Source: Lactiplantibacillus mudanjiangensis (GTDB taxonomy: Bacteria > Bacillota > Bacilli > Lactobacillales > Lactobacillaceae). Taken from it: 64,000 nt of DNA. The position numbers and the translations under genes are program-made. Where the stretch lies: positions 62,001-126,000 of the forward strand of contig NZ_BJDY01000005.1 of assembly GCF_005405385.1 (NCBI RefSeq). Reading direction: 5' to 3'. Below the pieces are notes generated by a model. The model had not been told where the DNA came from, made no database searches, and was given only the letters and a program-made list of their open reading frames with translations. The first letter of the stretch is position 1, and each line of letters starts with the position of its first letter. Shown here piece by piece: positions 18,976 through 46,797 of this stretch.

Positions 18976-19343
18976 CTAAGGGTTAAAAGATAATGATGAT
19001 GGTCCCTTACCAGTATTCAGGCTAATGAGCCACCTACGTCAGCCAGTGATTCTGCCGGCTGTGGGGACCGATTTCAGCCAAAATGCGGGCTTCAATCTCG
19101 CTTGAAAGCCAAGCAAAAAACACTAGTCTTTCAAGACGTCCACGTCGTAAGTCCGGCAAAAACACCCGGACAACGACGTTTTCACGGCCGGCGCCATCAC
19201 TGCCTGACTCCGGTTGTTAATTAAGCTTGTGATCACCACTAAACCGAGAGCGAGCACACATCTTTGGCTGAACCGGCCCGCCCACAGCGTTCCGGCTCAA
19301 TGCGGGCGAACGGTAGGTGGCAAGTAAGTCTCTTTTCAATCAA
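18976..19343 (+). repeat. Structured dispersed repeat, copy A
   Basis: This fills the convergent gap between the aspartate kinase and the ABC binding protein. The core runs 19029-19321 between arms GCCACCTAC and GTAGGTGGC. Inside are a hairpin CGTCGT-AA-GTCCGG/CCGGAC-A-ACGACG (19143-19178) and a stem CTTGAAAG/CTTTCAAG (19101-19108 with 19128-19135). The left flank begins with the outer motif CTAAGGGTTAAAAG. The same blocks occur in copies B, C and D. No coding potential and no transposase are seen. Copies A and C are in one orientation, B and D in the other. Confidence 0.85.
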
Positions 19344-19344
19344 C

Positions 19345-19371
19345 AAAAAACGACCACCATCCGGCAGTCGT
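19345..19371 (-). terminator. Terminator of the amino acid ABC operon
   Basis: Stem ACGACTGCC/GGTGGTCGT read on minus with a 4-base loop and six T after it. Confidence 0.8.
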
Positions 19372-19382
19372 CATTTACTAGT

Positions 19383-20219
19383 TTAGTTTTCAACCTTTTG
19401 ATTACCAAACCACTTCTTATTAATTTTAGCTAACGTTCCGTTGGCCTTCAATGTTTTCAAACCAGCGTTGATTTTAGCCTTCATTGTCTTATCACCTTTG
19501 CGCATCCCAACCGCGAAATCTTCCGATTTAAAGGTGCCTTGGGTTTCTTGGTAATCGGCCGAGTTGGCTTCGTGCTTAATATAATAACTCGCATAAACAC
19601 TATCAATCAATAGCCCTTTAATCCGCCCCGCATTCAAGTCTAAGAAAGCATTCGTAAAGGTATCGTATTGAATTGGCGTCTTTTTAGCAATCTTATTTTT
19701 CAATAGTTTCGGATTGTTCTCCAAGGATTCGTAACCTGACGAACCTGATTGAACCCCTAATGTCTTACCAGTCATATCATTAAATGACGTGATGTGGTTC
19801 TTCTTTAACGAAACTAACACTTGTTTATTCTTCAAGTAAGTATCACTGAATGCCACTACTTTTTCCCGCTGTGGATTCTTGGTATACCCGTTCCAAATTA
19901 AATCAATGGTCCCATTACGTAATTCCGTGGCGTTCATTGACCAATCAATGGTTTGAAAACTCACTTTAATGCCATAAAGTTTAAAAACAGCCCGTGCTAA
20001 GTCAACATCATAACCAACTAGTTTCCCAGATTTTTCTCGAAAACCCATTGGGACAAAGCTGTCATCTAAGCCGACAACGACGGTACCACGCTTCTTGATT
20101 TTCGCCCAAGTATCTTGCGTATTCGCCCGTGTGGTGACACTTTCACAACCAGATAAGCTCCCAGCCATACCAATCAGTAAGATGAATAGCAGGCCGAGGG
20201 TCATGATTTTTTTCTTCAT
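19383..20219 (-). CDS. Amino acid ABC transporter substrate-binding lipoprotein
   Basis: A family-3 (polar amino acid) solute-binding protein. The N-terminal signal has a lipobox LSGC with Cys25, so it is anchored to the outer face of the membrane. The mature part begins TWAKIKKRGTVVVGLDDSFVPMGF and contains GYDVDLARAVF, the usual ligand-cleft elements. At 278 aa it is normal length. It is the last gene of a three-gene operon (permease, ATPase, binding protein) under a T-box leader whose specifier reads CAC. Histidine is therefore the best guess for the ligand; this rests on the leader and not on binding-site residues. Confidence 0.9.
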   Translation of the reverse strand: MKKKIMTLGLLFILLIGMAGSLSGCESVTTRANTQDTWAKIKKRGTVVVGLDDSFVPMGFREKSGKLVGYDVDLARAVFKLYGIKVSFQTIDWSMNATELRNGTIDLIWNGYTKNPQREKVVAFSDTYLKNKQVLVSLKKNHITSFNDMTGKTLGVQSGSSGYESLENNPKLLKNKIAKKTPIQYDTFTNAFLDLNAGRIKGLLIDSVYASYYIKHEANSADYQETQGTFKSEDFAVGMRKGDKTMKAKINAGLKTLKANGTLAKINKKWFGNQKVEN

Positions 20220-20230
20220 TCTGCCACCCC

Positions 20231-20872
20231 CTACTTCGATTGATTCGGTTCAACCCGTAACATGTCGTCTGCAATATTTTCCGCAAAGGTAAGATCATGG
20301 CTAACCACGATCTGTGTCATCCCATCCGCTTTTAATCCTAAGATTAGCTTTTCAACTTCTTGCCGTAAGTTAGGATCAAGTGCTGACGTTGGTTCGTCAT
20401 AACACAAAACGTTGGGTTTCATAGCTAATGCTCGCGCAATAGCAACCCGTTGTTGTTGTCCACCAGAAAGTTGATATGGATATTGATCGCCATGATCACC
20501 CAAATCTAACCGTTCCAACAATTTTTGGGCATTAGCTTGCGCATCCGCTTCACTTTCCTTTAAAACCATCGTTGGTGCCAAAGTAATGTTCTGCAAGACT
20601 GTTAAATGTGGAAATAATTGGAAATTTTGGAAAACCACGCCAATGACACTTTCATTGGTCCGATTGGTATATGGATCAAAAGGTTGGCCATCAATAAGGA
20701 ATTCCCCTTCATCCACTTTTTCCAAACCGGTAATGCAGCGGAGCAAGGTGGTCTTCCCAGCACCGGAAGGGCCGACAATACTCAAAACTTCACCATCTTT
20801 AACGGTTAAATCTAATTGGTCGATGATCGTCCGATCACCAAACCGTTTTGTAATATTTTTAAGTGTTAACAT
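20231..20872 (-). CDS. Amino acid ABC transporter ATP-binding protein
   Basis: A compact 213-aa ATPase of the GlnQ/HisP type. Walker A is GPSGAGKTT (near residue 33), the signature is LSGGQQQR, and Walker B is VLCYDEPTSALDP. It is somewhat short at the C-terminus compared with the usual 240 residues. It lies 11 bases before the binding-protein gene and 12 bases after the permease gene, consistent with one operon. Confidence 0.93.
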   Translation of the reverse strand: MLTLKNITKRFGDRTIIDQLDLTVKDGEVLSIVGPSGAGKTTLLRCITGLEKVDEGEFLIDGQPFDPYTNRTNESVIGVVFQNFQLFPHLTVLQNITLAPTMVLKESEADAQANAQKLLERLDLGDHGDQYPYQLSGGQQQRVAIARALAMKPNVLCYDEPTSALDPNLRQEVEKLILGLKADGMTQIVVSHDLTFAENIADDMLRVEPNQSK

Positions 20873-20884
20873 GCGACTACCTCC

Positions 20885-21526
20885 CTATTTCCAGTAACTA
20901 TAGTGTTTTTCGACCCGACCAAGTACAAAAGTCGTGACCGCCGTCAAGACTAAGTAGATCACCCCGACTAACAACAATGGAATTAACGTGACATCACGTG
21001 CGGTGGCCACGTTACCTGCACGAAGCAAGTCGCCCAATCCAATCACGTAAACCAACGATGAATCCTTAATCAAGTTAATGACTTCATTCCCAACCGATGG
21101 CAACACGATCTTGACCACTTGTGGGATCACAATCTTGCGAATCGTTTGTGCATAGCTTAGACGTAACACTCGGGCACTTTCATATTGGCCATTATCAATT
21201 GATTGTAAGCCCCCACGGAAGATTTCGGCAAAGTAAGCGGCGTAATTTAAGATAAACGCGAACAATGCTGCTTCATAACGTGGGAAGACAATGCCAATCA
21301 ATGGAAACCCATAAAAGACAACGATCAATTGAAGTAACAATGGGGTTCCTCGCATTAACCAAACGTAAAAGTTAATTAGCCATTGTAGCGGTTTGATATT
21401 GGAGATTAGCCCTAAACTCAAAATCAACCCTAATGGCAATGACCCGACCAACGTCCATAAAAAGACTTGCAGCGTCAAACCGGCGCCAGATAACAATGAT
21501 GGCAAAATTTCTAAAATATAATGCAT
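20885..21526 (-). CDS. Amino acid ABC transporter permease
   Basis: A HisM/GlnP-type permease of 213 aa with about five membrane helices. The coupling (EAA) loop is seen as ESARVLRLSYAQTIRKIVIPQ. TIGR01726-like N-terminal features (GAGLTLQVFLWTLVGSLPLG) fit polar amino acid permeases. Only one permease gene is present, so a homodimer is expected. It is the first structural gene after the tandem T-box leader; its start ATG is preceded by TAGGAGGG. Confidence 0.93.
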   Translation of the reverse strand: MHYILEILPSLLSGAGLTLQVFLWTLVGSLPLGLILSLGLISNIKPLQWLINFYVWLMRGTPLLLQLIVVFYGFPLIGIVFPRYEAALFAFILNYAAYFAEIFRGGLQSIDNGQYESARVLRLSYAQTIRKIVIPQVVKIVLPSVGNEVINLIKDSSLVYVIGLGDLLRAGNVATARDVTLIPLLLVGVIYLVLTAVTTFVLGRVEKHYSYWK

Positions 21527-21540
21527 GTGTATTCCCTCCT

Positions 21541-21930
21541 AATTCACTAAAACAGTCACAAAAAAAGTCCCCTTGAGCCTTAAGCTCAAGAGGACGATTG
21601 GACGCGGTACCACCTCAGTTCGTAGTCACTTCACAGTCACTACCTCAGGGAGTTTAGTGATAATAAAAAAAATCGCCCCTAGGCCTACAGCCTAAGAGGA
21701 CGATTTTTATCGCGGTTCCACCTCATCTTCATCAATTGCTCACGCAATTGAACTCAGCGAGTTTATCACTAAACTCCGCCGCTAACGAGGCCAACCGAAA
21801 TGACTTACTTCATTCAGTCATTCAACTCACAGATGTGGTTCGTCATTTAAACGTGATCGACTTTTCACCGCCGTCGACTCTCTGCTCACCGTCTAACCAA
21901 CTACTCTTCTGTTCTCTGTTTTTTAATGTT
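21541..21930 (-). promoter_or_regulatory. Tandem T-box leader, His specifier
   Basis: Read on minus. Stem I holds the AGAGAG element, then the specifier loop GAAC-CAC-A with CAC (His) at 21835-21837. The antiterminator T-box is TGGAACCGCGATA at 21708-21720, and terminator 1 spans 21665-21707 with eight T. A second antiterminator T-box TGGTACCGCGTCC (21600-21612) and terminator 2 (21567-21595, seven T) follow with no second stem I. The specifier is assigned by analogy with the Val and Met leaders here, which show the same GAA-N-codon layout. Uncharged tRNA should prevent both terminations. Confidence 0.9.
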
Positions 21931-21936
21931 GTTCTC

Positions 21937-21965
21937 ATACTAACGAAAACTTTGCTAGCCGTCAA
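21937..21965 (-). promoter_or_regulatory. Promoter of the T-box/ABC operon
   Basis: Minus-strand TTGACG, 17-bp spacer, TAGTAT, just after the minD stop. Confidence 0.75.
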
Positions 21966-21976
21966 GCCCTAATCAC

Positions 21977-22783
21977 TTATTTTCGATGAAAAATTCCAGC
22001 AATCCGTGACCAGACACCTGGCTTTTGGGTCTCTAAGTTCATCAATGGCACGGTTTCGCCTTCAATTCGACGAGCAATATTTCGATAACCCTGTGCCGCT
22101 GGATTTTTAGGATCAAGCACGATTGGTTCACCATTATTCGATGTCCGAATGACCGCATCATCATCAAACACAATCCCTAAAAGATCAATTGATAAATGGT
22201 GGGTAATTTCGTCAATATCCATGGTTTCACCATCTTGCATCATCCGTTGTCGAATCCGGTTGATCACCAACCGTGGCGCTTCAGCTAGTGGATATTGTTC
22301 CAATAACCCAACGACACGATCGGCATCACGAATCGCTGAAATTTCTGGCGTTGACACAATAATGGCCGCATCTGCACCGGCAATCGCGTTCATAAACCCG
22401 CGTTCAATCCCCGCTGGACAATCTAACAAAACATAGTCAAAGTCCGGTTTGAGTTCTTCTACCAAGGCTTTGACTTGATCAGGATTGAGATCATCCTTAT
22501 CCGCATTTTGAGCCGCTGGCAACAAATATAACAGATCATCAAAGCGCTTGTCTTTGACTAATGCCTGACGTAATTGCGCCCGATTTTTGACCACATCCAC
22601 GATGTCATACAAAATTCGGTTATCTAAACCTAAAATCACATCCAAGTTTCGCAAGCCGATATCTAAATCGACTAAACAAACTTTTTTGCCCATTAAGGCT
22701 AGTGCTGTCCCGAGATTGGCAGTCGTCGTTGTTTTACCGACGCCCCCCTTACCAGAGGTCACAACAATTGCTTTTCCCATCAA
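21977..22783 (-). CDS. minD: Septum site-determining ATPase MinD
   Basis: MinD is the ParA-type ATPase that recruits MinC to the membrane and blocks polar septation. The deviant Walker A is GKGGVGKTTTTANLG at residues 10-24. The C-terminus (GVWSRIAGIFHRK) is the amphipathic membrane-targeting helix. The length (268 aa) is normal. The ATG overlaps the minC stop by four bases (ATGA type), so translation is coupled. No minE is nearby; as in other Firmicutes, DivIVA presumably sets the topology. Confidence 0.96.
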   Translation of the reverse strand: MMGKAIVVTSGKGGVGKTTTTANLGTALALMGKKVCLVDLDIGLRNLDVILGLDNRILYDIVDVVKNRAQLRQALVKDKRFDDLLYLLPAAQNADKDDLNPDQVKALVEELKPDFDYVLLDCPAGIERGFMNAIAGADAAIIVSTPEISAIRDADRVVGLLEQYPLAEAPRLVINRIRQRMMQDGETMDIDEITHHLSIDLLGIVFDDDAVIRTSNNGEPIVLDPKNPAAQGYRNIARRIEGETVPLMNLETQKPGVWSRIAGIFHRK

Positions 22784-23448
22784 ATATGTCCTCCATTCTG
22801 AATGAATAATTTAGGTCGTACGCGTTTTAACTGATTCAACGGTTGATAATCCAAGGTTTGAATGTCATTGATATACACCACGTTGGTATCATCAACGATT
22901 TTAGCTGGATCAACTAACTCAAGCAGTTCACCAACCCGCACTTTTGGAACAGTTGCGAGCGGGCTCACAATCACGGCCTCATTATGATCAGGATAACCGG
23001 CTTCCAAAGCACCGGCGACTTCCCCCATCACAAAGATATTCCCACTTGCTTGCAAAACGCCGCCTTCATGAATTTTACCAAAGAACAGCACATCACCAGT
23101 AATTGTCACAACTTGTCCATTACGAATAATTTGATTGACCAAATGAACCGTTTCCCGGTCAATCATCGCTAACGCATCAGACGTTAACACCACATCGGAC
23201 GTTAACTTATGAATACTAAAGGACGGATAACGATTGATCAGCTTGGTCACTGCTTGCGTCTGATCGGCCGTTAACAACCGACCTTCGGTACTCATATCAA
23301 AAGAGATTTGTTTGTCAGTCGTATTGTCAACTTGCAACCGGTCTAATAAGGTCTTCAAATCAACCATAATCTCATCAAACCCGGCAGCCTGCCGAAAGAT
23401 TAATTCATAGCCATCATTACTGGCTTTTAAAACCACACTTTGTTGCAT
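22780..23448 (-). CDS. minC: Septum site-determining protein MinC
   Basis: MinC inhibits FtsZ assembly together with MinD. The C-terminal half contains the right-handed beta-helix repeats (GQVVTITGDVLFFGKIHEG, GGVLQASGNIFVMGEVAG), while the N-terminal 100 residues form the FtsZ-inhibiting domain. The length (222 aa) is normal. It is the penultimate gene of the mreB-mreC-mreD-minC-minD cluster, which ties rod elongation to division placement. Confidence 0.95.
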   Translation of the reverse strand: MQQSVVLKASNDGYELIFRQAAGFDEIMVDLKTLLDRLQVDNTTDKQISFDMSTEGRLLTADQTQAVTKLINRYPSFSIHKLTSDVVLTSDALAMIDRETVHLVNQIIRNGQVVTITGDVLFFGKIHEGGVLQASGNIFVMGEVAGALEAGYPDHNEAVIVSPLATVPKVRVGELLELVDPAKIVDDTNVVYINDIQTLDYQPLNQLKRVRPKLFIQNGGHI

Positions 23449-23470
23449 GTTGTGAATTCCTTTCTACCGA

Positions 23471-23995
23471 CTAACTAACTTTTAGATACAACTGCCGTAC
23501 TGGATAATACAAAATGACAAACAAGGCTAAGTTGACCGCAATGGTTGGGCCTAATGTATAGACCGCAAAGTCGGCTAAGTTACTCGTAATTACTTTACCA
23601 ATTAAATACCAAATATAAACGAAAGCTTCGACAATCGTTAAGTTGATAATATAGACCATCAGCATGGTCAGAAAGTTTAAGTCTAACCAAGGCTTAATCT
23701 GACGACTGATATAAACAACCAGTGGTAAGGCGACTAGATAGACCCCAAAAACACCGGTATAATACCAATCAAAAATTAACCCAGCAAAGGCTGCCCATAA
23801 ACCTACCGGCAGCTCCCCTCGATCATCCAAGAAGATTGCAAAGACAATCCATAATAGGACTAAATGCAACACACTGGAATAGGGATACTTAAACAAATGG
23901 CCCGCAAAAGCGTTAGATAACGAACCATCCAAAAAGAGGGCTAAGAACAACCCAATTGGGAAGATAATTTTCAAACGTGAATATCGCAAGTCCAT
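23471..23995 (-). CDS. mreD: Rod shape-determining protein MreD
   Basis: A small integral membrane protein (174 aa, about five to six helices) matching MreD: LKIIFPIGLFLALFLDG at the N-terminus and GLIFDWYYTG in the middle. It works with MreC and MreB in the elongasome. It follows mreC by 7 bases. Confidence 0.93.
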   Translation of the reverse strand: MDLRYSRLKIIFPIGLFLALFLDGSLSNAFAGHLFKYPYSSVLHLVLLWIVFAIFLDDRGELPVGLWAAFAGLIFDWYYTGVFGVYLVALPLVVYISRQIKPWLDLNFLTMLMVYIINLTIVEAFVYIWYLIGKVITSNLADFAVYTLGPTIAVNLALFVILYYPVRQLYLKVS

Positions 23996-24002
23996 ACCTC
24001 CC

Positions 24003-24848
24003 TTACTTCACGGCAACCGTGACCACCGTTAAATCACTCAAGTCGGCAGCTGGGGTAATGCGGACTTCCGAAGCCAACCCATAATCATCTTGTTTAACGC
24101 TGGCAACTGTCCCAACGTACAAGCCCTTAGGCGTCACACCACCCAAACCACTGGTGACAACTTTGTCACCCTTTTCGATCTTGGTCTTTGAAGTGACTGA
24201 ACCCATTTCAATCAAGTTGGTACTCTTATCATAACCCGTCACAATCCCATTGACCGTACTACCAGATTTATTGGTAACTTGAATGGCGAATTTATCCGCT
24301 GACGAACTGGTATTTGAAATCAATTCAACTTTTGAATTAGTTTGATTGACTTCAACCACTCGACCAATCAGACCTGATTGTGACATGACTGGCATATTCT
24401 TCTTAATCCCAGCAGTAGCCCCTTTAGAAATCACCAATTGGTTCATCCATGAAGATGGCGTCCGCGTCAAGACATTAGCCGTTACAGCTGTGTAGTCTGA
24501 CAAGGATTTATTTAATTTTAATTCTTTACGTAACTGCTTATTTTCCGCCGTCGCGGTTTGTGCATTGACTTTAACTTGTGCTAATTGGTCAACTTGTTTC
24601 TTTAACTTTTGGTTTTCTTGGTAAGTATTTAATAAATCAGATACCGAATTAGAAGCACCTTGGAGTCCATTGACCGGCCAAGCAACGACGCGATCAACGG
24701 CCCCCACTACATCGTTCCCGAATTGCTGGATCAATGGTGGTGTTGACTTCTTATTACGGATAGCGACAGAAACGCTCATCAAGCCGAGACTGACAATTAA
24801 CACAATAATCACGATTACCAGTTTACGGTTGGAAAAAAACTTTTGCAT
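24003..24848 (-). CDS. mreC: Rod shape-determining protein MreC
   Basis: MreC is an extracytoplasmic scaffold of the elongasome with one N-terminal membrane helix (residues 9-28), a coiled coil (about 65-105, LKKQVDQLAQVKVNAQTATA) and a C-terminal double beta-barrel with GLIGRVVEVN and GDKVVTSGLGG motifs. The length (281 aa) is normal. GGGGGTTC ribosome site 3-9 bases before ATG. A hairpin (24892-24911) lies between it and mreB. Confidence 0.95.
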   Translation of the reverse strand: MQKFFSNRKLVIVIIVLIVSLGLMSVSVAIRNKKSTPPLIQQFGNDVVGAVDRVVAWPVNGLQGASNSVSDLLNTYQENQKLKKQVDQLAQVKVNAQTATAENKQLRKELKLNKSLSDYTAVTANVLTRTPSSWMNQLVISKGATAGIKKNMPVMSQSGLIGRVVEVNQTNSKVELISNTSSSADKFAIQVTNKSGSTVNGIVTGYDKSTNLIEMGSVTSKTKIEKGDKVVTSGLGGVTPKGLYVGTVASVKQDDYGLASEVRITPAADLSDLTVVTVAVK

Positions 24849-24879
24849 GTTGAACCCCCGGTCGAAAATTCAATTTGTT

Positions 24880-24911
24880 AACAATAAATAAGCGGGAAGT
24901 CATCTTCCCGC
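24880..24911 (-). terminator. Hairpin between mreB and mreC
   Basis: GCGGGAAG/CTTCCCGC with a 4-base loop, followed on minus by an interrupted T-rich stretch. It may be a weak terminator or an mRNA-stability hairpin that raises MreB over MreC/MreD. Confidence 0.5.
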
Positions 24912-24918
24912 CCACTTG

Positions 24919-25923
24919 TTATCGCTTTTTCATAACATCGATGCTCTTAAGTGATTCACCAGTCCCAACGGCCACACAATCAAGTGGTTCGTTAGCAATG
25001 AATACTGGCACTTTAGTCGCATCAGCAATGACTTCGGAAAGATTCTTCAAAAGGGCGCCACCACCGGTCAAAACAATCCCGTGGTCAATCACATCAGAAG
25101 CGATTTCTGGGGATGTTTCTTCGAGGGTTTCCTTAATAGCCGAAATAATTTCTGAGACGATTTCTTGAATCGCTTCAGCAACATCAACCGCTGAAATTTC
25201 AACCGTTTTTGGTAACCCAGATAATAAGTCCCGGCCCCGAATCGTTGAACTTTCAATATCTTTAGCTGCTTCTAATGAAGCAGAGCCGACATCAATTTTT
25301 AATTGTTCCGCAGTCCGTTCACCAATTAACAGGTTAAACTTCTGACGGACGTGATAAATGATTGAATCATCAATCTTATCACCAGCCATACGGATCGAAC
25401 GACTAGACACAATTCCACCTAAGGAAATTGTGGCAACGTCAGTCGTCCCACCACCAATATCAACCACCATGCTACCGGTTGGATCCATAACTGGCAAACC
25501 AGCACCGATCGCAGCAGCAAATGGTTCTTCAATGACATAAGCATCACGTGCACCAGCAACTCGAGTTGCATCGATAACGGCCCGCTTTTCAACTTCAGTT
25601 ACACCACTTGGTACGCAAACCATGACATATGGTTTACCATTTGAGCGGCCTAACGTCTTTTGAATAAAGTATTTCATCATCGCAACGGTTGTATCGTAGT
25701 CTGCAATGACCCCATCTTTCATTGGTCGAATCGCAACAATACTTGCTGGCGTTCTCCCGATCATATCCCGTGCTTCTGAACCAACAGATACGATCTCACC
25801 AGTCTTCGTGTTCTTCGCAACCACGGATGGTTCTCGTAGTACGATTCCCTTGCCGTCAACGTACACAATCGTGTTGGCAGTACCGAGATCGATCCCGATA
25901 TTCTTTGTCCCAAATCCGAACAC
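24919..25923 (-). CDS. mreB: Actin-like rod shape protein MreB
   Basis: MreB forms membrane filaments that direct lateral wall synthesis. The actin-fold motifs are [17 protein letters not shown] (phosphate 1), [10 protein letters not shown] (phosphate 2) and [11 protein letters not shown] (adenosine). GTG at 25923 is chosen: GAAGGG lies 9 bases before it, and the product then begins [13 protein letters not shown] like other MreB proteins; the ATG three codons earlier sits directly on the ribosome site. First gene of the mreBCD-minCD cluster with its own promoter. A paralogue is at 59295-60290. Confidence 0.96.
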
Positions 25924-25982
25924 TACATTCATCCCTTCATCATTTACAAATTTATATTATTTTATTAGTCATAATAGTAAGT

Positions 25983-26010
25983 ATTATAGCATAATAGCCC
26001 AGCATAAAAA
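25983..26010 (-). promoter_or_regulatory. Promoter of mreB
   Basis: Minus-strand TTTTTA, 16-bp spacer, extended TGC-TATAAT. Confidence 0.6.
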
Positions 26011-26084
26011 ACTTGCCTGAAACCTAGCATACCGTAATCTATTAAAAAATACAGTCCCATTATTGAACTTAGATAAAATTTAAC

Positions 26085-26125
26085 AAAAAACGCGATTAGG
26101 CGAATAATATTCGTCCTAACCCCGT
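26085..26125 (-). terminator. Terminator after radC
   Basis: Long imperfect stem (CGGGGTTAGG with CCTAATCGCG, inner CGAATA/TATTCG-like pairing) followed on minus by six T. Confidence 0.75.
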
Positions 26126-26145
26126 TATTTTACCACATTCTTTTC

Positions 26146-26784: not shown

Positions 26785-26822
26785 CAGTGTCACCTTCACT
26801 TTCGTTAGGCAACTCCGTAAAA

Positions 26823-28142: not shown

Positions 28143-28163
28143 ACGATCTCCTCCTCTGCCTAG

Positions 28164-28200: not shown

Positions 28201-28215
28201 TATACAGGTTAAAAA

Positions 28216-30913: not shown

Positions 30914-31167
30914 CAAAAAAGTCCACTCATCCTAACAAACTTAGGACGAATGGACTTCGCGGTACCACCTAATTTTAAAGTATCCAAACGATACTTTACA
31001 CTTAAACGTTGTTGTTAACGAACGGGGGTGCCGTCCGGTTGTCCCTACTATCAGTTCAGGGCAACAGCTCGCAAGCTACTTTCATTTAACGTTGAACGAA
31101 AACTTACAGTCCCGTTTTCTTTCTGAAGATCAACCGTTAAACTACTCTCTTGCTCATTGCTTGAATA
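30914..31167 (-). promoter_or_regulatory. T-box leader of valS, Val specifier
   Basis: Read on minus. Stem I has AGAGAG and the specifier loop GAAA-GUA-G, with GTA (Val) at 31077-31079. The T-box is TGGTACCGCGAAG at 30955-30967, and the terminator (AGTCCA...TCCTAA paired with TTAGGA...TGGACT) is followed by a T-run at 30915-30920. UGGU fits an A discriminator as in tRNA-Val. Confidence 0.93.
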
Positions 31168-31173
31168 AGCCTA

Positions 31174-33376: not shown

Positions 33377-33775
33377 TTTTAGTCATAATCGCTGATATGG
33401 CAAGCATTCACCGATCAAAAATGGTCATGCTTGTCACCTACCGTTCGCTTATCTTGAGCCTGAACGCTATGAGGCACGGTTACGATAGCGATTGTTAGAC
33501 TATTTAATGACCACCATACAACCGGAGTCAGTGATGACGCCGGCCGTGAAAACATCGTTAGTCCGGATGATTTTGACGGACTCTACGATGTGGACGACTT
33601 TTGAGACTAGCGGTTGGGGCTAGGCTCAAAAGCGAGGTGGAAGCCCGCATTTTGGCTGGAATCGGTCCCCACAGCTGGCAGAATCACTGACTGGCGGAGG
33701 TGACCAATTTAGCATAGTTCAAGCCGGTATCAGTATAGTGTCTATCGCCATAATTACCTTTCAACCCTTAGTTAG
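33377..33775 (-). repeat. Structured dispersed repeat, copy B
   Basis: Core 33433-33704 between arms GTCACCTAC and GGAGGTGAC. Both outer positions changed together relative to copies A and D (GCCACC/GGTGGC), so the arms still pair. It contains the hairpin CATCGT-TA-GTCCG/CGGAC-TCT-ACGATG (33553-33590) and the stem CTTTTGAG/CTCAAAAG (33598-33605 with 33625-33632). It lacks most of the GAGCTCAC module of copies C and D. The right end carries TTTCAACCCTTAGTTA. It occupies most of the 595-base gap after thiI; the rest of that gap is a terminator and the start region of paralogue 2. Confidence 0.85.
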
Positions 33776-38764: not shown

Positions 38765-38786
38765 CCACCGGTAAACATGCTATGCT
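38757..38786 (+). promoter_or_regulatory. Promoter of rpsD
   Basis: TTGACT, 18-bp spacer, extended TGC-TATGCT. It overlaps the last codons of the fRMsr gene. Confidence 0.7.
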
Positions 38787-38810
38787 ACTCTTTGTGTAAA
38801 ATATGCAGCA

Positions 38811-38918
38811 GTGAACGGGTAAGCTCGTCAACAGATTGGTGCCACTCAGTGGTCAGTTAGTAACCTGCGGCTGCAATGGTGAAACCTGCAGTCTAATCTG
38901 AACGAATATTGCGTTCAC
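38811..38918 (+). promoter_or_regulatory. Structured leader of rpsD (S4-type autoregulatory element)
   Basis: GTGAACG at 38811-38817 pairs with CGTTCAC at 38912-38918 and encloses CAGATT/AATCTG (38832-38837 with 38895-38900) and CTGCA/TGCAG (38871-38875 with 38887-38891), making a multi-branch fold. In Firmicutes S4 represses its own translation through such a leader. Assignment is from position and shape. Confidence 0.65.
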
Positions 38919-38963
38919 ATCGGCCTATTTTACTCCAACTAAAATTATTGGAGGAACCAATTT

Positions 38964-39572: not shown

Positions 39573-39583
39573 TTTCCGGTTTA

Positions 39584-39620
39584 CAAAAAAAGTCATCGCA
39601 AATGCGATGGCTTTTTTATT
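39584..39620 (+). terminator. Bidirectional terminator rpsD / yktB
   Basis: AAAAAAAGTCATCGCA and TGCGATGGCTTTTTT pair around a 2-base loop; T-runs are present on both strands, and the two flanking genes converge on it. Confidence 0.88.
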
Positions 39621-39624
39621 ATCC

Positions 39625-40239
39625 CTATTTTTCTCGAGTGGCGGCCATAATCGGGGTATAAATTGGTAATAGTCCGTTAACCGTCGCCAAAATAAAAGCC
39701 GTTAACGCCGCTTCATCATCAAATAACGGGCTATCAACTGGCACAGATCGCCCAGCGACTAATTCACTATGTTTGGTTTGGCCAAATTTATGAATCGCAG
39801 CGACAATATTTTCAGGGGTCGCCATATTAGTCGTTGCCACGCCATGATTATTGCTAATCACATAGTCAGCTGGTAATTGTTGATACCAAGTGAGTAATTG
39901 ATCAGGCGTTACTTGCGCTTGGACCGCCGCTTTACTCTCATCTAGGATATCTACATAAATGAATAACCGATCGGGCCAAAAGCCCAGTTCAAAATGCGGC
40001 AAGGCTTTGTAGCGCCGTTTATCTTCACTAAAGGCCACCCAAGTATCAACTGGTGGATTTTTAAACCGTCGTAAATGCTTGGCAACATGCGCGTAAAATG
40101 GTTGGCCAGTCACCGCCAATTGTTCAATCACCGTTGGCGCAATGGCCTCAAACTTTGGATCAATGATGGTTTTAATTAAGTGCATCCGTCCGGCTAATGT
40201 TGGATCGTCAAAAATTTCAAAGTCACTTTTGGTAAACAT
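39625..40239 (-). CDS. DUF1054 (YktB/UPF0637) protein
   Basis: A 204-aa soluble protein of the DUF1054 family: FEIFDDPTLAGRMHLIKTII at the N-terminus, then HVAKHLRRFKNPPVDTWVAF and HFELGFWPDRLFIYVDI. The function is unknown in the family. ATG 40239 follows AGGAAGTGAG; an upstream ATG lacks a ribosome site. Single-gene transcript converging on the rpsD terminator. Confidence 0.88.
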   Translation of the reverse strand: MFTKSDFEIFDDPTLAGRMHLIKTIIDPKFEAIAPTVIEQLAVTGQPFYAHVAKHLRRFKNPPVDTWVAFSEDKRRYKALPHFELGFWPDRLFIYVDILDESKAAVQAQVTPDQLLTWYQQLPADYVISNNHGVATTNMATPENIVAAIHKFGQTKHSELVAGRSVPVDSPLFDDEAALTAFILATVNGLLPIYTPIMAATREK

Positions 40240-40375
40240 TGGACTCACTTCCTTATCAAAATTAGCATACCGTAAACACTCCAACTTTTAAAGCCCAGTA
40301 TCATACCGGCTAATCATCGCCTTTCAGACTAGAACATGCTACAATTAAATGATTAGCTGAGAAAGGATGTTTGAT

Positions 40376-40834
40376 ATGGCTGATACAGAAAACCAAGCAG
40401 GCGAGCGATTACAAAGCGCCATGTACGGGACGCCGCAATTGCATCCCGATGAACAACACAAATATTTAGGCACATTTCGGGAACGTGTCGAAGTAGCGGT
40501 CACCGTTTATCAAATCAAACGACAACATTACGTTGACCAACTCAATCAGGCCTTTGCCGCCCACCCTGACTACCGACTACTCATCAATGGCAACCTCGAT
40601 GAAGATATCTTAGGCCCCTATTTGGCTGCTGTCGCCAAGGCCAATGTCCCATTCACATTAAAGACCGACAGCGTTTATCATACTGGCGATGATAACTACG
40701 CGTTAGTCTTCGCCGCCGATACCGCGATTAACGAGGATGTCATCGATATTGAAAAACGATATCCAACGACCACCCCAACTGATGATAAACCGGCCAGTAC
40801 CGGTTTCCTCAACAAACTAAAAAAATTATTCTAA
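40376..40834 (+). CDS. YueI-family (DUF1694) protein
   Basis: A 152-aa acidic soluble protein. It matches YueI by ERLQSAMYGTPQLHPDEQ, YLGTFRERVEVAVT, and LLINGNLDEDILGPYLAAV. Function unknown. ATG 40376 is preferred: AAAGGATG lies 9 bases upstream, while the ATG at 40367 is inside that site. Followed by a strong terminator, then repeat copy C. Confidence 0.88.
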   Translation: MADTENQAGERLQSAMYGTPQLHPDEQHKYLGTFRERVEVAVTVYQIKRQHYVDQLNQAFAAHPDYRLLINGNLDEDILGPYLAAVAKANVPFTLKTDSVYHTGDDNYALVFAADTAINEDVIDIEKRYPTTTPTDDKPASTGFLNKLKKLF

Positions 40835-40840
40835 ATACTC

Positions 40841-40880
40841 AAAAACGCTCAGGATTTCAAAATTCCTGGGCGTTTTATTT
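40841..40880 (+). terminator. Terminator after yueI
   Basis: AACGCTCAGGA pairs with TTCCTGGGCGTT (one G-U), followed by TTTTATTTT. Confidence 0.85.
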
Positions 40881-40884
40881 TGCT

Positions 40885-41370
40885 AACTAAAGGTTGAAGA
40901 ATAATTACGGCCATAATTACCAGTCTGAGTGATGCTAAATTGGTCACCTGCGTCAGCCAGCGATTCTGCCGGCTGTGGGGACCGGTTCCAGCCACAAAAC
41001 GGGCTTCCACCTCGCTTTTAAGCCTAGCCAAAACCGCTAGTCTCAAAAGTCGTCCACATCGTAAAGTCCGGTGCCATCACTGGCTGGCTCCGGTTGTATC
41101 GCAGAGACTAATCAATCTAGTTAATCACTAATATAACCGAGAGTGAGCTCACATTGAGCCCAGCTGTGGGAAGCTCTTAGCGATTTATCGCTTTTTGAAA
41201 CGCGGGTTTGGTGGTTCAAAACGACGGCTCAGACCGCTTTTTGGCTGAGCCGGTCCCATCCACAGCGTTCCGGCTCAAGGTGGGCGAACGGTAGGTGGCA
41301 CGGACGTCTAGTTTTGATCGATAAATACCTAGCATATCAACGCTTATTGCTAAAAAGTATCTTTCAATGG
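40885..41370 (+). repeat. Structured dispersed repeat, copy C
   Basis: Left end AACTAAAGGTTGAAGA. Core 40943-41299 between GTCACCTGC and GTAGGTGGC. It contains a CTTTTAAG/CTCAAAAG stem with an inner CTAGC/GCTAG, and a CGGCTCAG/CTGAGCCG stem (41225-41232 with 41245-41252). The central hairpin of copies A, B and D is missing: the two TCCGG halves are joined, as if the hairpin had been deleted. The right flank shares ATATCAACG-TTATTGCTAAAA with copy D. It fills the convergent gap between yueI and gshF; nothing else is seen there. Confidence 0.85.
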
Positions 41371-41386
41371 AAAGTCACTAATCCAG

Positions 41387-43639
41387 TTAGTCTTTTGGAA
41401 ATAACGTTGCTAATAACGTTGTCGCAACTGGTTGTGCATCGCCAAACATTGGAAATAGATGTGGGTAGAGATATGGCGTCGCGTGAATACCTAAATAAAC
41501 AGCCATTTCAGGATGTTCAGGTGTTAATTCAGCATACAAATTCGGAATCATCACATCAACCCCGGCAACTTGTAAATTCAATTCAGCGACTAATTTTTCA
41601 ACAGCTTGTACATATGATGGATGCATATCATCGGTGGCATCTAAGACATCCGCCCCATTACCAAAGGTTGCATCTTCTCGCAATAAGATTTGGGTCCCTC
41701 GACTGACCACAGTATCGAGATCTAGCTGATATGACGCTAAACGATAACGTTCAATCGTGCCTAGGGTCAATTGCGATTGTGGATACTTGAAGGCTGGCCC
41801 CCGTAAAGCGCGTGCGTTCTTGCGATCTAGTAACGTTTGCACGGTTGAGCGACCATCACCTACAATATTAGCCGGAATACGTTCAACAATCGCTTGAACC
41901 TGTCCACCAATAACCAAGAAACGATAACTGGCACCCACAATTAGTTCTTCGGCCATAACCGACTTGGTTTGTTCGAACAACTGACGAACCACTTGCTCAA
42001 ATAGTTGACGCTCAGGCATTATCCGAAAAGCAACCACCGCATGCGTCTGATCGGTTGCCTTCAGGACAATCCCACCCCCCTGAACATACCGATCATAATC
42101 GTCAATTAGCTGATTAGCAGATCGATAAGTCTGTGACGCTGGTACCATGACACCGTGTTCTGCCATAACCTGCTTAGCAGCAACTTTATGGCTGAGCACC
42201 GTTGTCAGCGCTTGTGGGTTCAAATCGGTTCCACTACCGTTAACCACTAACTGAGCCTGATCTTGGCGAGTCAAACGCAAAATGTTAGCTGTGGCATCGA
42301 CGACATCAACTTGAATGCCACGAGTGAGCGCTGGCGCAATCAACAATTGACTAGATAAATCTAGCTGATCGAATCCGGGCAATGTAAATGGCTGTTCGTT
42401 AGCTGCGGCCTGGTATTGCTTAGCTTGTTGGCAGCTCCAAGCTAAAGTATTTGCTTGTTGCGCAACAATCGCACTCGGTGTTTGCTTAGGATCGGTCACC
42501 CGTTGTTTCAAGTTCGCTAGCAACTGACGATCATGATCAGGTAACCCTTGTTCGGTCACGAAATCAGCTAAGGCCGTCAATACTTGTAATGCCGGTTGTG
42601 CTTGAGCACTGGCCGTTGTTGGATTTTCAGTCGTCACTTGCGTCATTAATGCGGTTGCCTGCTTACCAACTTGAGTGACCATGGCAGTTGGCAACCCTGG
42701 CATCATCGCAAAATAGCTCGCTAACAAACGAATAAAGGCCACCGCTTGTTGATCAACACCGGTCATCGTCGTTGGATCTAAATCTAAACCACGATATTCT
42801 AAATAATAGACTCCTTGTCGAGCTAACTTTTCTAAACTGCCCATACTTCTAAAACGCACTGGACCGTCAAAATCGCTCACACTCAACAAGTCACCTTTAC
42901 GCACCGCCGCTTGGATATTGGCCACATACCGATCAATCGAACTATAATCACCCGTAACCGCATTTAATCGACCAGCGGGGGTATGAACACTCGTCCGCTG
43001 CGGTTTGGTCTTCGTATCGGTCACTGCTAAAGTTGGCGTTGCACCAAATAAATACTGGATTAACCAGTCCATTCGTACAAGTCCTTGGGCCACTTTCAAA
43101 TACACGGCATTACGGAAGTCAACATAGCTACTGTACTGTTGATGGAATGTTTCGGTATATAGCCGCGTAAAAACTTGTTCATTGAAGCTCAGATTAACAT
43201 GGGTCCCAGTTGTCATTAAAGCCGTCATATCATATTTTTCCGCCTGCTGTTGACGGCGTTTAAAGCCAACTTCATCGGCTTCTGCCAATGGAATCGTGGA
43301 CAACTCAGCTGGTAATACTGGCGTACTCGACAACGGCCACAAAAACTCATCAGCCGCTAATTCTCGACGAACTGCCATATTCAATCCGGTTAAATAAGCC
43401 ATTAATTTTGATAAATCAGCCATGGCCGGGGTCATAAATTTCAATTGCGTTTGGGCAAACCCTGCATGTAATTGCCGATTATGTCGTTGATTGCCGAAAG
43501 CCTTTGGGTAAGGCTGAGTGGATAAATGTCCCTGACCATCAACTCGTTGCATCGTCACTTCCAATCCCAGATTGGATTGACTGACCAATGGGACTAAGTG
43601 GTACTGTTTAATTGCTTGACCAACTGCATCTAATGCCAT
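41387..43639 (-). CDS. gshF: Bifunctional glutathione synthetase GshF
   Basis: GshF fuses glutamate-cysteine ligase and an ATP-grasp glutathione synthetase in one chain. The N-terminal ligase region has SNLGLEVTMQRVD, HNRQLHAGFAQTQLKF and THVNLSFNE. The C-terminal ATP-grasp part (from about 480) has VLSHKVAAKQVMAEHGVMVP, VLKATDQTHAV and the late VSRGTQILLREDATFGNGAD and AELNLQVAGVDVMIPN. The length (750 aa) is typical. ATG 43639 has GAGG 9 bases upstream. Glutathione synthesis through GshF is patchy in lactobacilli and often taken as horizontally acquired; nothing in the local sequence proves transfer here. Confidence 0.93.
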   Translation of the reverse strand: MALDAVGQAIKQYHLVPLVSQSNLGLEVTMQRVDGQGHLSTQPYPKAFGNQRHNRQLHAGFAQTQLKFMTPAMADLSKLMAYLTGLNMAVRRELAADEFLWPLSSTPVLPAELSTIPLAEADEVGFKRRQQQAEKYDMTALMTTGTHVNLSFNEQVFTRLYTETFHQQYSSYVDFRNAVYLKVAQGLVRMDWLIQYLFGATPTLAVTDTKTKPQRTSVHTPAGRLNAVTGDYSSIDRYVANIQAAVRKGDLLSVSDFDGPVRFRSMGSLEKLARQGVYYLEYRGLDLDPTTMTGVDQQAVAFIRLLASYFAMMPGLPTAMVTQVGKQATALMTQVTTENPTTASAQAQPALQVLTALADFVTEQGLPDHDRQLLANLKQRVTDPKQTPSAIVAQQANTLAWSCQQAKQYQAAANEQPFTLPGFDQLDLSSQLLIAPALTRGIQVDVVDATANILRLTRQDQAQLVVNGSGTDLNPQALTTVLSHKVAAKQVMAEHGVMVPASQTYRSANQLIDDYDRYVQGGGIVLKATDQTHAVVAFRIMPERQLFEQVVRQLFEQTKSVMAEELIVGASYRFLVIGGQVQAIVERIPANIVGDGRSTVQTLLDRKNARALRGPAFKYPQSQLTLGTIERYRLASYQLDLDTVVSRGTQILLREDATFGNGADVLDATDDMHPSYVQAVEKLVAELNLQVAGVDVMIPNLYAELTPEHPEMAVYLGIHATPYLYPHLFPMFGDAQPVATTLLATLFPKD

Positions 43640-43768
43640 AAACGTTAACCTCATTTTTCTTAGTTTTAATTAATTGCGACTATCGCGACGTTAAACCGAT
43701 TACTCGGTTATGTTCCTTCTAAATGCTATAATAGTTGGGACTAGTTTTGCAAGGAGGAATCGAAAAAC

Positions 43769-45049
43769 ATGCAACAGCCATTAGCTTATCGCATGCGGCC
43801 CCAAACGATTGAAGACGTCGTTGGCCAACAACATTTGGTCGGCCCCGGCAAAATCATCGCCCGCATGGTCACGGCCAAACGCCTATCCTCAATGATTTTA
43901 TATGGCCCACCAGGTACCGGGAAGACCAGCATCGCCAGTGCCATTGCTGGATCGACCAAGTATGCCTTTCGGATGTTAAATGCTGCCACGGATAGCAAAA
44001 AGCAACTACAAATTGTTGCTGAAGAAGCCAAAATGAGTGGCACCGTGATTCTACTGCTTGATGAAATTCATCGACTCGATAAAACCAAACAAGACTTTTT
44101 ACTGCCCCACTTAGAAAATGGTCGTATCATCCTAATTGGTGCGACGACTGAAAATCCTTACATCAGTATTAATCCCGCCATTCGAAGTCGAACACAAATT
44201 TTTGAAGTTCATCCACTGCAACCAGCTGATATCAAAACGGCGATCGAACGCGCATTATCTGATGAAAAGAACGGTTTAGGCCAATATGATATCACGTTAG
44301 AACCAGCTGCCATGAGTCATCTCTGCAACGCCACTAATGGAGATTTACGTAGCGCACTAAATGGCCTAGAATTAGCCGTCTTATCAACAGTTAAACCTAA
44401 CGAAACCGCCGTCACTATCACCCAACCAATCATCGAAGAATGCTTGCAACGCAAAGCACTATCGGCGGATAAAGATGGTGATGCCCATTATGATGTCATT
44501 TCAGCGTTCCAAAAATCCATTCGTGGCTCTGATGCCAACGCCGCGCTCCATTATTTAGCTCGGTTACTTGAAGCTGGTGACTTAAAGAGTATCATGCGAC
44601 GACTAATGGTCATTGCTTATGAAGACGTCGGTTTAGCGAATCCCCCGGCATGTGCCCATACGGTGACTGCTGTGCAAGCAGCCGACCAGTTAGGTTTACC
44701 CGAAGCACGTATTCCATTAGCCAATGCCGTCATTGAACTGGCTTTATCACCGAAATCTAATTCAGCCATGGGCGCCATTGATGCGGCAATCGATCAAGTT
44801 CGTACTGGTCATTTCGGTGATATTCCTGCTGATTTAAAAGATGCCCATTATGCTGATGCCGCTAAATTAGGCCACGGGGTCGGCTACGATTATCCTCATG
44901 ATCATCCAGGCGACTGGGTGGCCCAACAGTATCTCCCTGATCGCATAAAAAATGCCACTTATTATCAACCAAAAACTAATGGCCGCTTTGAAGCAGCATT
45001 AGGTGAACAGTACGAAAAACTACTCAAAGCCAATGCGAAGAATCGCTAG
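43769..45049 (+). CDS. rarA: Replication-associated recombination protein RarA
   Basis: RarA (MgsA) is a clamp-loader-like AAA ATPase acting at stalled forks. Walker A is GPPGTGKTS (residues 46-54), Walker B is LLDEIHR, with a sensor GATTENP. The C-terminal tetramerisation region contains SDANAALHYLARLLEAGD and YPHDHPGDWVAQQYLPD. The length (426 aa) is normal. AAGGAGG ribosome site. The 6S RNA gene follows directly, as in other lactobacilli. Confidence 0.95.
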   Translation: MQQPLAYRMRPQTIEDVVGQQHLVGPGKIIARMVTAKRLSSMILYGPPGTGKTSIASAIAGSTKYAFRMLNAATDSKKQLQIVAEEAKMSGTVILLLDEIHRLDKTKQDFLLPHLENGRIILIGATTENPYISINPAIRSRTQIFEVHPLQPADIKTAIERALSDEKNGLGQYDITLEPAAMSHLCNATNGDLRSALNGLELAVLSTVKPNETAVTITQPIIEECLQRKALSADKDGDAHYDVISAFQKSIRGSDANAALHYLARLLEAGDLKSIMRRLMVIAYEDVGLANPPACAHTVTAVQAADQLGLPEARIPLANAVIELALSPKSNSAMGAIDAAIDQVRTGHFGDIPADLKDAHYADAAKLGHGVGYDYPHDHPGDWVAQQYLPDRIKNATYYQPKTNGRFEAALGEQYEKLLKANAKNR

Positions 45050-45071
45050 ATTAACGACCCTTGCAGAATGA

Positions 45072-45100
45072 TTGCAACTTCGAATCGATTATGCTAGACT
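45072..45100 (+). promoter_or_regulatory. Promoter of 6S RNA
   Basis: TTGCAA, 17-bp spacer, TAGACT, directly after the rarA stop. Confidence 0.65.
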
Positions 45101-45106
45101 AATAGT

Positions 45107-45345
45107 CGAAATTACTAAGGTGTGCGCATTGCTCTAACAAAAGCGTTGCCGAACAATTAATACTACTTTGGGATTACCTACAGGTTGCTATCGAACATGC
45201 CTTATCATTTGGTAGTTTTGTAGCTTCACAGCTGATCCCACCTGCCTTGAAGCGGGTCAACACTGAAGGGCGATTAACGGCACCACTAGTTTTTCCGGAA
45301 GCTTGCTTCCGCGAGTCAGGACTTGTTCCTGACTCTTTTTTTATT
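45107..45345 (+). ncRNA. ssrS: 6S RNA (Lacto-usp type)
   Basis: The non-coding gap between rarA and the small membrane gene has the outline of 6S RNA: an outer helix including GCCG...TTAAT paired with ATTAA...CGGC, a large central bubble, an inner stem closed by GGGAT/ATCCC, and a 3' hairpin. It ends in a strong terminator (GAGTCAGGA/TCCTGACTC plus seven T, 45316-45345). The position upstream of a usp gene is that of the Lacto-usp motif, later recognised as Lactobacillus 6S RNA. 6S binds the vegetative RNA polymerase holoenzyme like an open promoter. The exact 5' end is inferred from the promoter. Confidence 0.78.
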
Positions 45346-45376
45346 GATAACTTACACCAACCGGAGGCCTCGACCC

Positions 45377-45658
45377 TTGATTACTTTATTACTGATTATC
45401 TATACCGCGATTGCAGCGTTACTCGGCTATTATCTAGTTAGCCATCAAGCCAAGCCATTTTTAACGTTTGATCCAACAAAAACCCCAGCGGTCAAAAATA
45501 TCGCGCGCTATGGCGGCAGCTTGATGCTACTCGTTGCCATCGCCAGTTGCGTCAGTATTTTTTATCAAAACACAGCTTTGATCGCCCTCACCTTAGCTAG
45601 TGGCTGTATTATTATGATGGGCGTTGGCTTATTTTTGATGAGTTTTATGACCATCTAA
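45377..45658 (+). CDS. Small two/three-helix membrane protein
   Basis: A 93-aa product starting TTG ATT ACT, set by CCGGAGGCC 7-8 bases upstream. Longer in-frame starts would lie inside the 6S terminator. Three hydrophobic segments are visible: ITLLLIIYTAIAALLGYYL, GGSLMLLVAIASCVSIFY and TLASGCIIMMGVGLFLMSF. I recognise no family. It lies between 6S RNA and usp, with about 70 bases to usp. Confidence 0.75.
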   Translation: MITLLLIIYTAIAALLGYYLVSHQAKPFLTFDPTKTPAVKNIARYGGSLMLLVAIASCVSIFYQNTALIALTLASGCIIMMGVGLFLMSFMTI

Positions 45659-45727
45659 GAGAAAACGCTTTTTATTTTTCACGAAAACCTTTACAATATA
45701 AGTATAAAGTATTGAGGGGTGAGAGTG

Positions 45728-46210
45728 ATGTTACAACAATATCAAAACATCTTAGTTCCCGTTGATGGTTCTTACGAAGCGGAATTAGCATTTAAAAAAG
45801 CGGTCGCCGTTGCAAAGCGGAATGGCCCACGAGCAGCAGTTCATATGGTTCACGTCGTTGATACCCGGGCCTTCCAAAACATTTCTAGTTTTGACACGAC
45901 TATGGTTGAACAAGTAACCGACACAGCTCAAAAAACGTTAGACAAATATGTCGCTGAAGCCAAAGCTGACGGTTTAAACAACGTCGACTATTCGATCGAA
46001 TATGGGGCACCAAAGACCATTATCGCGCGTGATGTGCCTAAGGACTTAAACATTGATCTGATTATGATTGGCGCAACTGGTCTTAATGCCGTTGAACGAT
46101 TATTAATTGGTTCTGTCACCGAATATGTCACTCGGATGGCCGTTTGTGATGTCTTAGTTGTGCGGACCGATTTGGCCAACCAACCAGCACCAAAGCCTAA
46201 GAAAAAATAA
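45728..46210 (+). CDS. Universal stress protein (UspA family)
   Basis: A 160-aa single-domain Usp. It starts LQQYQNILVPVDGSYEAELAF and has the ATP-binding signature G-x2-G-x9-G-S in GATGLNAVERLLIGSVTEYV, so it is of the ATP-binding type. The C-terminus is Lys/Pro rich. ATG 45728 is used because GAGGGG lies 8 bases upstream; the GTG at 45719 overlaps that site. A weak TTTTTA-17-TACAAT promoter lies at about 45668-45696. Confidence 0.92.
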   Translation: MLQQYQNILVPVDGSYEAELAFKKAVAVAKRNGPRAAVHMVHVVDTRAFQNISSFDTTMVEQVTDTAQKTLDKYVAEAKADGLNNVDYSIEYGAPKTIIARDVPKDLNIDLIMIGATGLNAVERLLIGSVTEYVTRMAVCDVLVVRTDLANQPAPKPKKK

Positions 46211-46225
46211 GCACCATTACTAATG

Positions 46226-46257
46226 ACGTTACTAGTCGCTGACTAGTAGCGTTTTTT
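46226..46257 (+). terminator. Terminator after usp
   Basis: ACGTTACTAGT pairs with ACTAGTAGCGT (one G-U) around CGCTG, followed by six T. Confidence 0.85.
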
Positions 46258-46263
46258 GATTAC

Positions 46264-46797
46264 CAACTAAAGGTTGAAAGCTAGGTTTTAGCAATAATCG
46301 TTGATATGATAAGCACTCATCGATCAAAGGTAGTCATACTTGCCACCTACCGTTCACCCACATTGAGCCGGAACGCTGTGGGCGGACCGGTTCAGCCAAA
46401 AGGCGGTCTGAACCGTCGTTTTGAACCACTAAACCCGTGTTTCAAAAACGCCAGTCTCTAAGCGATAAATCGCTAAGAGCCTCCCACGGCTGGGCTCAAT
46501 GTGAGCTCACTCTCGGTTATAATAGTGATCGCTAATTAACTAGCATCCGCATGATAACCGGAGTCAGCCATTGATGGCGCCAGCTGTGAAAACATCGTTA
46601 GTCCGGATGGTTTTCCCGGGCTTACGATGTGGACGACTTTTGAGACTAGCGGTTCTGGCTAGGCTTAAAAGCGAGATGGAAGCCCGCACTGTGGCTGGAA
46701 TCGGTCCCACAGCCGGCAGAATCACTGACTGGCGTAGGTGGCTAATTTAGCATAGCTCAGACCAGTACTACTACCGTCACATTTAACTTTTAGTTAC
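46264..46797 (-). repeat. Structured dispersed repeat, copy D (longest)
   Basis: Outer ends AACTAAAGGTTGAAAG (46265-46280) and, inverted, AACTTTTAGTT (46785-46795). Core 46342-46742 between perfect arms GCCACCTAC/GTAGGTGGC. Internal stems: CGGTTCAG/CTGAACCG (46388-46395 with 46408-46415), CTCTAAGCGAT/ATCGCTAAGAG (around 46464-46487), CATCGT...GTCCGG/CCGGGC...ACGATG (46593-46629), and CTTTTGAG/CTTAAAAG (46637-46671). It holds every module found in A, B and C, so it is nearest to full length. It lies in the 631-base convergent gap between usp and the XRE regulator, with a terminator on each side. Confidence 0.87.

Follow-up and report, generated by a model that had tools for sequence, protein, structure and literature searches.

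Why should a non-coding repeat whose copies differ at many bases keep its stems paired? The question is raised by four copies of such a repeat, here called A to D, which lie in 64,000 nucleotides of the Lactiplantibacillus mudanjiangensis genome (contig NZ_BJDY01000005.1, positions 62,001 to 126,000 of the forward strand; this whole stretch is referred to as the window). An original prediction, made from the letters of the window, had read them as a multi-hairpin repeat with compensatory changes, and had offered two explanations, selection for an RNA fold or the need of a foldback DNA form for spread or for a protein. The element is a miniature inverted-repeat transposable element (MITE): it is non-coding, bounded by terminal inverted repeats (TIRs), and accompanied by target duplications and by an insertion sequence (IS) with the same ends. 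Probably it is moved in trans by an IS4-family transposase and bears two selected folds, each on the strand that reads outward, with resting copies decaying near-neutrally. Computation showed its bounds and copy number, the same-ended IS, the fold with its covariation, the polarity of the strands, and how inherited changes differ from private ones. The proposal that a fold is selected, as RNA or for spread, is supported, with selection falling on spreading lineages and not on single resting copies; mobility, an IS4-family partner and a two-arm unit are features that go beyond that first reading.

A large family of short mobile elements

A nucleotide search of the genome, which had been proposed as a means of finding further copies, placed A to D in a large intergenic family. 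The genome comprises 3.29 Mb in 13 contigs; blastn located 95 copies or pieces within a 939,717-base sample of it that was partly chosen for copies, and 23 in two contigs (C1 and C5, 424 kb, window included) that were taken irrespective of copies. These 23 make up 2.0% of the 424-kb sequence and extrapolate to about 178 copies or pieces per genome. With copy D as query against its own genome, a first look gave 224 candidates, 40 of which were scored, and a one-arm model found a match in every one of 150 scored candidates, that is, in at least 150. Full-length copies measure about 540 bp and the shorter ones result from internal deletions, the joints of which lie at short direct repeats; some joints are common to several copies (e.g., consensus positions 118/360 in three).

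The element ends in 14-bp TIRs with the sequence CTAAAGGTTGAAAG. Allowing at most one mismatch, this sequence is matched 132 times in the L. mudanjiangensis genome (63 forward and 69 reverse), as against no match in either direction for the reversed pattern used as control. Target duplications of 7-8 bp are seen among the 59 copies in which both TIRs were located by a loose rule: the flanks are identical at 8/8 positions in 14 copies and at 7/8 in seven, and several of the remaining copies have 7-bp duplications that are out of register by one.

Two folded modules pointing outward

The interior of the element consists of two divergent copies of one module of about 200 nt, inverted and pointing outward, with arm I read on the minus strand, arm III on the plus strand and a hairpin between them. 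On its outward-reading strand each module forms a closing stem and three hairpins, and 101/110 arms retain one A.G mismatch within hairpin B. The feet of the arms pair as well, in an outer stem whose duplex has -26.7 kcal/mol as against -14.8 kcal/mol with swapped partners (163 arms). The fold of copy D has a z-score of -7.7 on both strands, which was equalled by none of 100 shuffles. The outward arrangement recurs in other genomes, where 43 of 50 distinct pairs of neighbouring arms have this orientation; a search of 600 nt around 144 distinct arms there revealed no neighbour for 47. Shorter arms, about 108 nt long and lacking hairpin C, also occur in several genomes (loci L098, L099, L113, L114 and others) and are perhaps a second arm type.

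Paired changes across genera

The letters of the stems vary freely from arm to arm. Pairing was examined in two alignments fitted to a covariance model, A5 (67 arms, four of them from the own genome) and A6 (115 rows, 15 own, 110 distinct arms). In A5, 94.2% of cells are paired versus 67.8% after shuffling, the covariation value is 0.624 versus 0.167 shuffled and at most 0.108 when slid, and both sides have changed at 40 of the 43 pairs. The figures for A6 are 93.1% versus 68.3% shuffled and at most 43.9% slid, with changes on both sides at 41/43 pairs. On single branches of the tree, 300 double changes from one Watson-Crick pair to another were counted at 40/43 pairs, 150 of them transversional; a re-paired null that kept the tree and the columns gave a mean of 12 and a maximum of 49 in 300 trials. 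Covariation across genera is thus very strong, where its absence would have spoken against the predicted stems. Under a home-made null similar to that of R-scape, no pair among 61 own copies rose above the null maximum, perhaps because of subfamilies and uneven rates. The three highest-ranking of 147,153 column pairs in these copies are structural, but only six of the top 20 are, and seven of the 20 lie off the structure, more than 20 columns apart and mostly in the right subterminal region.

Strand polarity and the timing of selection

Wobble pairs reveal which strand of each arm is held to its fold. On the plus strand, the tips of the 61 own copies show 151 GT and 52 AC cells in arm III, as against 35 GT and 89 AC in arm I, and internal branches show 27 G-T to 7 A-C and 4 G-T to 19 A-C, respectively. 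An A-C on the plus strand of arm I is a G-U on its own outward strand, and on outward strands the G-U:A-C counts are 46:11 on internal and 112:68 on terminal branches. Internal branches of A6 give 44:18, and the central hairpin follows the polarity of arm I (tips AC 51, GT 9). A fold in double-stranded DNA had been suggested by the pooled counts (GU 188, AC 176) and was rejected, since the counts split by arm are opposite and strong.

The polarity is confined to inherited changes. Private changes, found in a single copy, are balanced at 25:25, which differs from the inherited 46:11 (Fisher p = 0.001). Shared variation per 1000 cells amounts to 39.7 and 54.1 at paired sites of the arms versus 113.6 and 98.3 at unpaired ones (ratios of 0.35 and 0.55), and private variation to 6.4 and 7.4 versus 9.4 and 8.1; only three private cells are paired on both sides as against 84 changed on one side. 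A wobble polarity that is inherited but not private indicates that one strand per arm folds and is selected during spread, and private stem changes near the unpaired rate indicate that resting copies decay nearly freely. The paired changes are not accounted for by drift of a dead repeat, an explanation doubted from the outset: pairing is maintained through inherited changes and hardly through private ones.

The IS4-family partner

No autonomous version was found inside the loci examined first. A TIR search of six congeners without arm matches gave matches in four, and in one of these (G019) two facing TIR copies bound a 1,559-bp element with an IS4-family transposase between them. The transposase has Pfam DDE domains and matches NF049925 (NCBIfam transpos_IS4_4) with 435.9 bits, the cut-off being 250. 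An IS with facing TIRs (at most one mismatch each) occurs in 5/21 genomes of the genus at lengths of 1,460-1,567 bp, some copies being broken, and over congeners and other genera its length is 1.5-1.6 kb. In the family, the transposase is encoded in 24/201 genomes. Three of these (G077, G156 and G201) carry IS copies with exact TIRs at both ends, perfect 8-bp duplications flanking one G077 copy (ACAGTAAA) and the G201 copy (TTATTTGA), and one of the two G156 copies being without duplication; several other IS copies have different ends or none that can be recognised. The IS therefore has the 14-bp TIR and the 7-8 bp duplication of the element, and differs from it in having a transposase and no arms.

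Arms were detected in 13/24 genomes with the IS versus 41/177 without it (Fisher p = 0.003), a comparison that presumes that both surveys drew the identical 201 genomes. On the strength of the shared TIR, the target duplications and this co-occurrence, the element can be classed as a MITE belonging to this type of IS. The family and genus searches found no IS4_4 match in the own genome, where only a deleted relic came to light. The relic (L075 7758-8069, i.e., G000:C2:537758-538069) is internally deleted, retains a terminal repeat and 48 N-terminal transposase residues of 71% identity beside a C-terminal piece, and agrees with the IS end at 41 of its first 46 bases. Derivation from an ISL3 or IS256 element was considered and rejected, PF01610 and PF00872 having no matches in the own genome.

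Distribution and database comparisons

Two covariance models of the arms were used, R1 for the arm III core (from 47 own copies) and R2 (from 67 matches). R1, with at most 150 candidates scored per genome, found arms in at least 15/21 genomes of Lactiplantibacillus. With R2, for which at most 16 (family) or 10 (class) candidates per genome were scored under stricter filters so that counts are floors, arms were found in at least 54/201 genomes of the family, own included, and at least 11/40 genera. None of 298 other genomes of the class (at least two of them of the same family) gave arms with R2, a result in which weak matches could hide. Pattern matches to the element also occur in records of L. 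fabifermentans and L. herbarum, with one in Companilactobacillus huachuanensis.

Searches of plasmid and phage sequences gave no match. One arm lies on a contig of 4.9 kb that IMG/VR lists as viral (L196 245-380, minus strand, 107.1 bits with R2), which may be host DNA. No identity to an Rfam family (release 15) emerged: copy D reached at best 15.1 bits against a gathering score of 33, the loci of three relatives had nothing at the arms, and the window had nothing at the copies, its only matches being two T-box leaders (21693-21925 and 30939-31166, both on the minus strand; 121.7 and 123.1 bits).

The four copies of the window

By blastn, the four copies belong to the one family of 95 places, as predicted, with the correction that A and C are oriented oppositely to B and D. 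Their parts are as follows, in coordinates of the window.

18976-19343, minus strand: copy A, shortened and decayed; left terminal repeat CTAAGGGTTAAAAG (two mismatches, read directly), right end degenerate
19056-19193, minus strand (outward strand): folded arm III of copy A; R1 148 bits, R2 136.3 bits
33377-33771, plus strand: copy B; left terminal repeat lost, right terminal repeat CTTTCAACCCTTAG at 33758-33771
33538-33677, plus strand: folded arm III of copy B; R1 159.7 bits, R2 127.7 bits
40887-41370, minus strand: copy C; left terminal repeat CTAAAGGTTGAAGA at 40887-40900, right end decayed
40970-41089, minus strand: folded arm III of copy C; R1 105.2 bits, R2 91 bits
41158-41267, plus strand (outward strand here): folded arm I of copy C; R2 39.8 bits (E 1.1e-7), R1 a partial match only (18.9 bits)
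46267-46793, plus strand: copy D, nearly full length (527 bp); terminal repeats CTAAAGGTTGAAAG at 46267-46280 and CTTTTAG ending at 46793
46374-46495, minus strand (outward strand): folded arm I of copy D; R1 37.2 bits, R2 65.6 bits
46578-46715, plus strand (outward strand): folded arm III of copy D; R1 152.8 bits, R2 131.2 bits

All the stem words that had been claimed are present where they were placed. In copy A these are GCCACC (19029) with GGTGGC (19316), CGTCGT (19143) with ACGACG (19173) and CTTGAAAG (19101) with CTTTCAAG (19128); in copy B, GTCACC (33433) with GGTGAC (33699), CATCGT (33553) with ACGATG (33585) and CTTTTGAG (33598) with CTCAAAAG (33625); in copy C, CGGCTCAG (41225) with CTGAGCCG (41245); and in copy D, GCCACC (46342) with GGTGGC (46737), CATCGT (46593) with ACGATG (46624) and CGGTTCAG (46388) with CTGAACCG (46408). 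The stems are real; instead of standing as separate hairpins, they nest within two arms and an outer stem. The non-coding character of the repeat also held, as the list of open reading frames (ORFs) of at least 100 amino acids has none inside any of the four copies; a frame with a TTG start (41314-41706) overlaps the end of copy C. The hairpin CTTGAAAG/CTTTCAAG of copy A, together with an exchanged central hairpin, marks a distinct subfamily of arm III that is also present in two other loci (L054 16706-16885 and L069 19141-19320).

What folds, and to what end

Taken together, the conservation of pairing through changing bases suggests that the fold, rather than the sequence, helps the element to spread. 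In the model that we favour, an IS4-family transposase of the transpos_IS4_4 type would move the element in trans by way of the shared 14-bp TIR, each insertion producing the 7-8 bp duplication, and transcription leaving the element would give rise to folded arm RNA, with single-stranded DNA as runner-up. The folded arm would then aid transposition, binding by the transposase or by a host factor near the ends being the likeliest role that we can propose for it. The fold would be selected in the lineages that spread, and copies at rest would decay nearly neutrally. A bolder version, in which the arms constitute a new class of structured RNA acting as a selfish cofactor of DNA transposition, whose folding is required for mobilisation by the IS4-type transposase or a host factor and which has spread through Lactobacillaceae irrespective of stem sequence, is speculative and on balance unlikely.

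Several observations weigh against the favoured model. No IS4_4 match at E 1e-30 is found in 41 of the 54 arm-bearing genomes, and no arm lies within any of the 34 IS loci (the same copy recurs in some of them), which indicates that the IS itself manages without them. Near arms of other genomes an outward TIR is seen in just 20/143 cases with at most two mismatches (reversed control 1) and 23/143 with at most three (reversed control 8); the ends of the element are thus shown in Lactiplantibacillus and only assumed elsewhere. The fitting of A5 and A6 to a covariance model biases both towards structure, a clear polarity is seen neither in the outer stem (GT 39, AC 27) nor in the terminal repeats (GT 32, AC 17), and no clear promoter or terminator signal was seen near the arms. 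At unpaired sites of both arms, read in the sense of the arm, C-to-T exceeds G-to-A, a possible mutational bias, though one that is absent from private stem changes. Finally, in a comparison with RNase P RNA from 30 family genomes analysed by the same procedure, the arms have a lower share of G-U cells (4.5% vs 13.6%) and weaker G-U:A-C ratios on terminal branches (77:44 and 68:41 vs 49:5 and 40:5). Decay of dead copies would yield both of these deviations, and so would DNA.

Around the arms, TATAAT-like words number 39 and 39 per 20-nt bin from about 60 to 20 nt before the arm, other bins holding 5-32. A strict terminator stands beside the element in 7/55 copies as against 53/2768 random positions, a difference that is no more than suggestive, the random positions not being restricted to intergenic gaps. 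In inverted repeats around arm pairs of other genomes only two scores (20 and 19) exceeded the maximum of 15 reached by mixed-pair controls, and both were arm stems; the known TIR scored 9-14.

The most serious alternative, possible although we rather doubt it, leaves RNA out: in the course of transposition or of lagging-strand synthesis, single-stranded arm DNA would fold and become a binding site for the transposase or a host protein. At either end of a DDE element the strand that is transferred is the outward one, the low G-U share and the missing promoter signal would both be expected, and several internal deletions have joints with overlaps of about 12-14 bases, in short direct repeats near the hairpin feet, as slippage across a DNA hairpin would produce. 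On the other hand, IS4-type transposition is not, to our knowledge, known to pass through single strands, and the wobble asymmetry of the arms on internal branches (46:21 and 51:12) is about as strong as that of RNase P RNA (43:15 and 32:11). The internal-branch ratios fit RNA, the overall G-U share fits DNA better, and RNA is somewhat likelier as the folded form.

It is very improbable that the host benefits from the folds at each individual site, where they would end transcripts of convergent genes in both directions or stabilise them. The idea draws on the gene setting of the 84 of 95 places that could be classified with simple ORF calls as genes: 45/84 copies lie between convergent ORFs, as against 64/433 other gaps, and 5/84 between divergent ones, as against 102/433. 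Orientation is nevertheless unrelated to gene direction in tandem gaps (17 vs 17), and the near-parity of private changes in stems and unpaired sites, with their balanced wobble, means that copies at rest are under hardly any constraint. Template switching or gene conversion that copies one side of a stem onto the other without any function accords with the many double changes on single branches, but it would erase the A.G mismatch that most arms keep, yields no strand-specific wobble and should also hit resting copies, in which private changes paired on both sides are so few, and is scarcely credible.

Relation to known systems and significance

Paired, inverted, folded modules in intergenic positions are known from repetitive extragenic palindromes and bacterial interspersed mosaic elements (REP/BIME) with their RAYT partners, which are short simple hairpins not known to have TIRs or target duplications. 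The present element does have target duplications and so departs from them.

In the Bacillus cereus group, the bcr1-bcr18 repeats are likewise intergenic, with conserved secondary structure in some families; according to the available part of the source (PMC3446304), bcr1-3 are MITE-like, and conserved structure is ascribed to bcr10 and bcr18, which fall outside the MITE-like group. They are repeats of another genus, and the likeness drawn here is one of description. Bacterial MITEs, as presented in the accessible portion of a review (PMC10969869), share with the element a short non-coding body, TIRs with target duplications, many copies, AT-rich intergenic sites and transcripts predicted to fold. 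The difference lies in the interior, here a two-arm module with a multi-helix structure that covaries across genera; the words "compensatory" and "covariation" are absent from the text of the review. A literature search, which covered mostly titles and the beginnings of abstracts and so does not establish absence from print, returned no title on such an element in lactobacilli.

MITEs are usually viewed as little beyond the ends of an IS, and here an interior fold is kept across genera. About 2% of the sampled genome sequence consists of an element whose fold shows selection where lineages spread and hardly any at rest. The element adds a structured family without a match in Rfam, and it allows one to ask directly whether IS4-type transposition involves folded RNA or a single strand of DNA.

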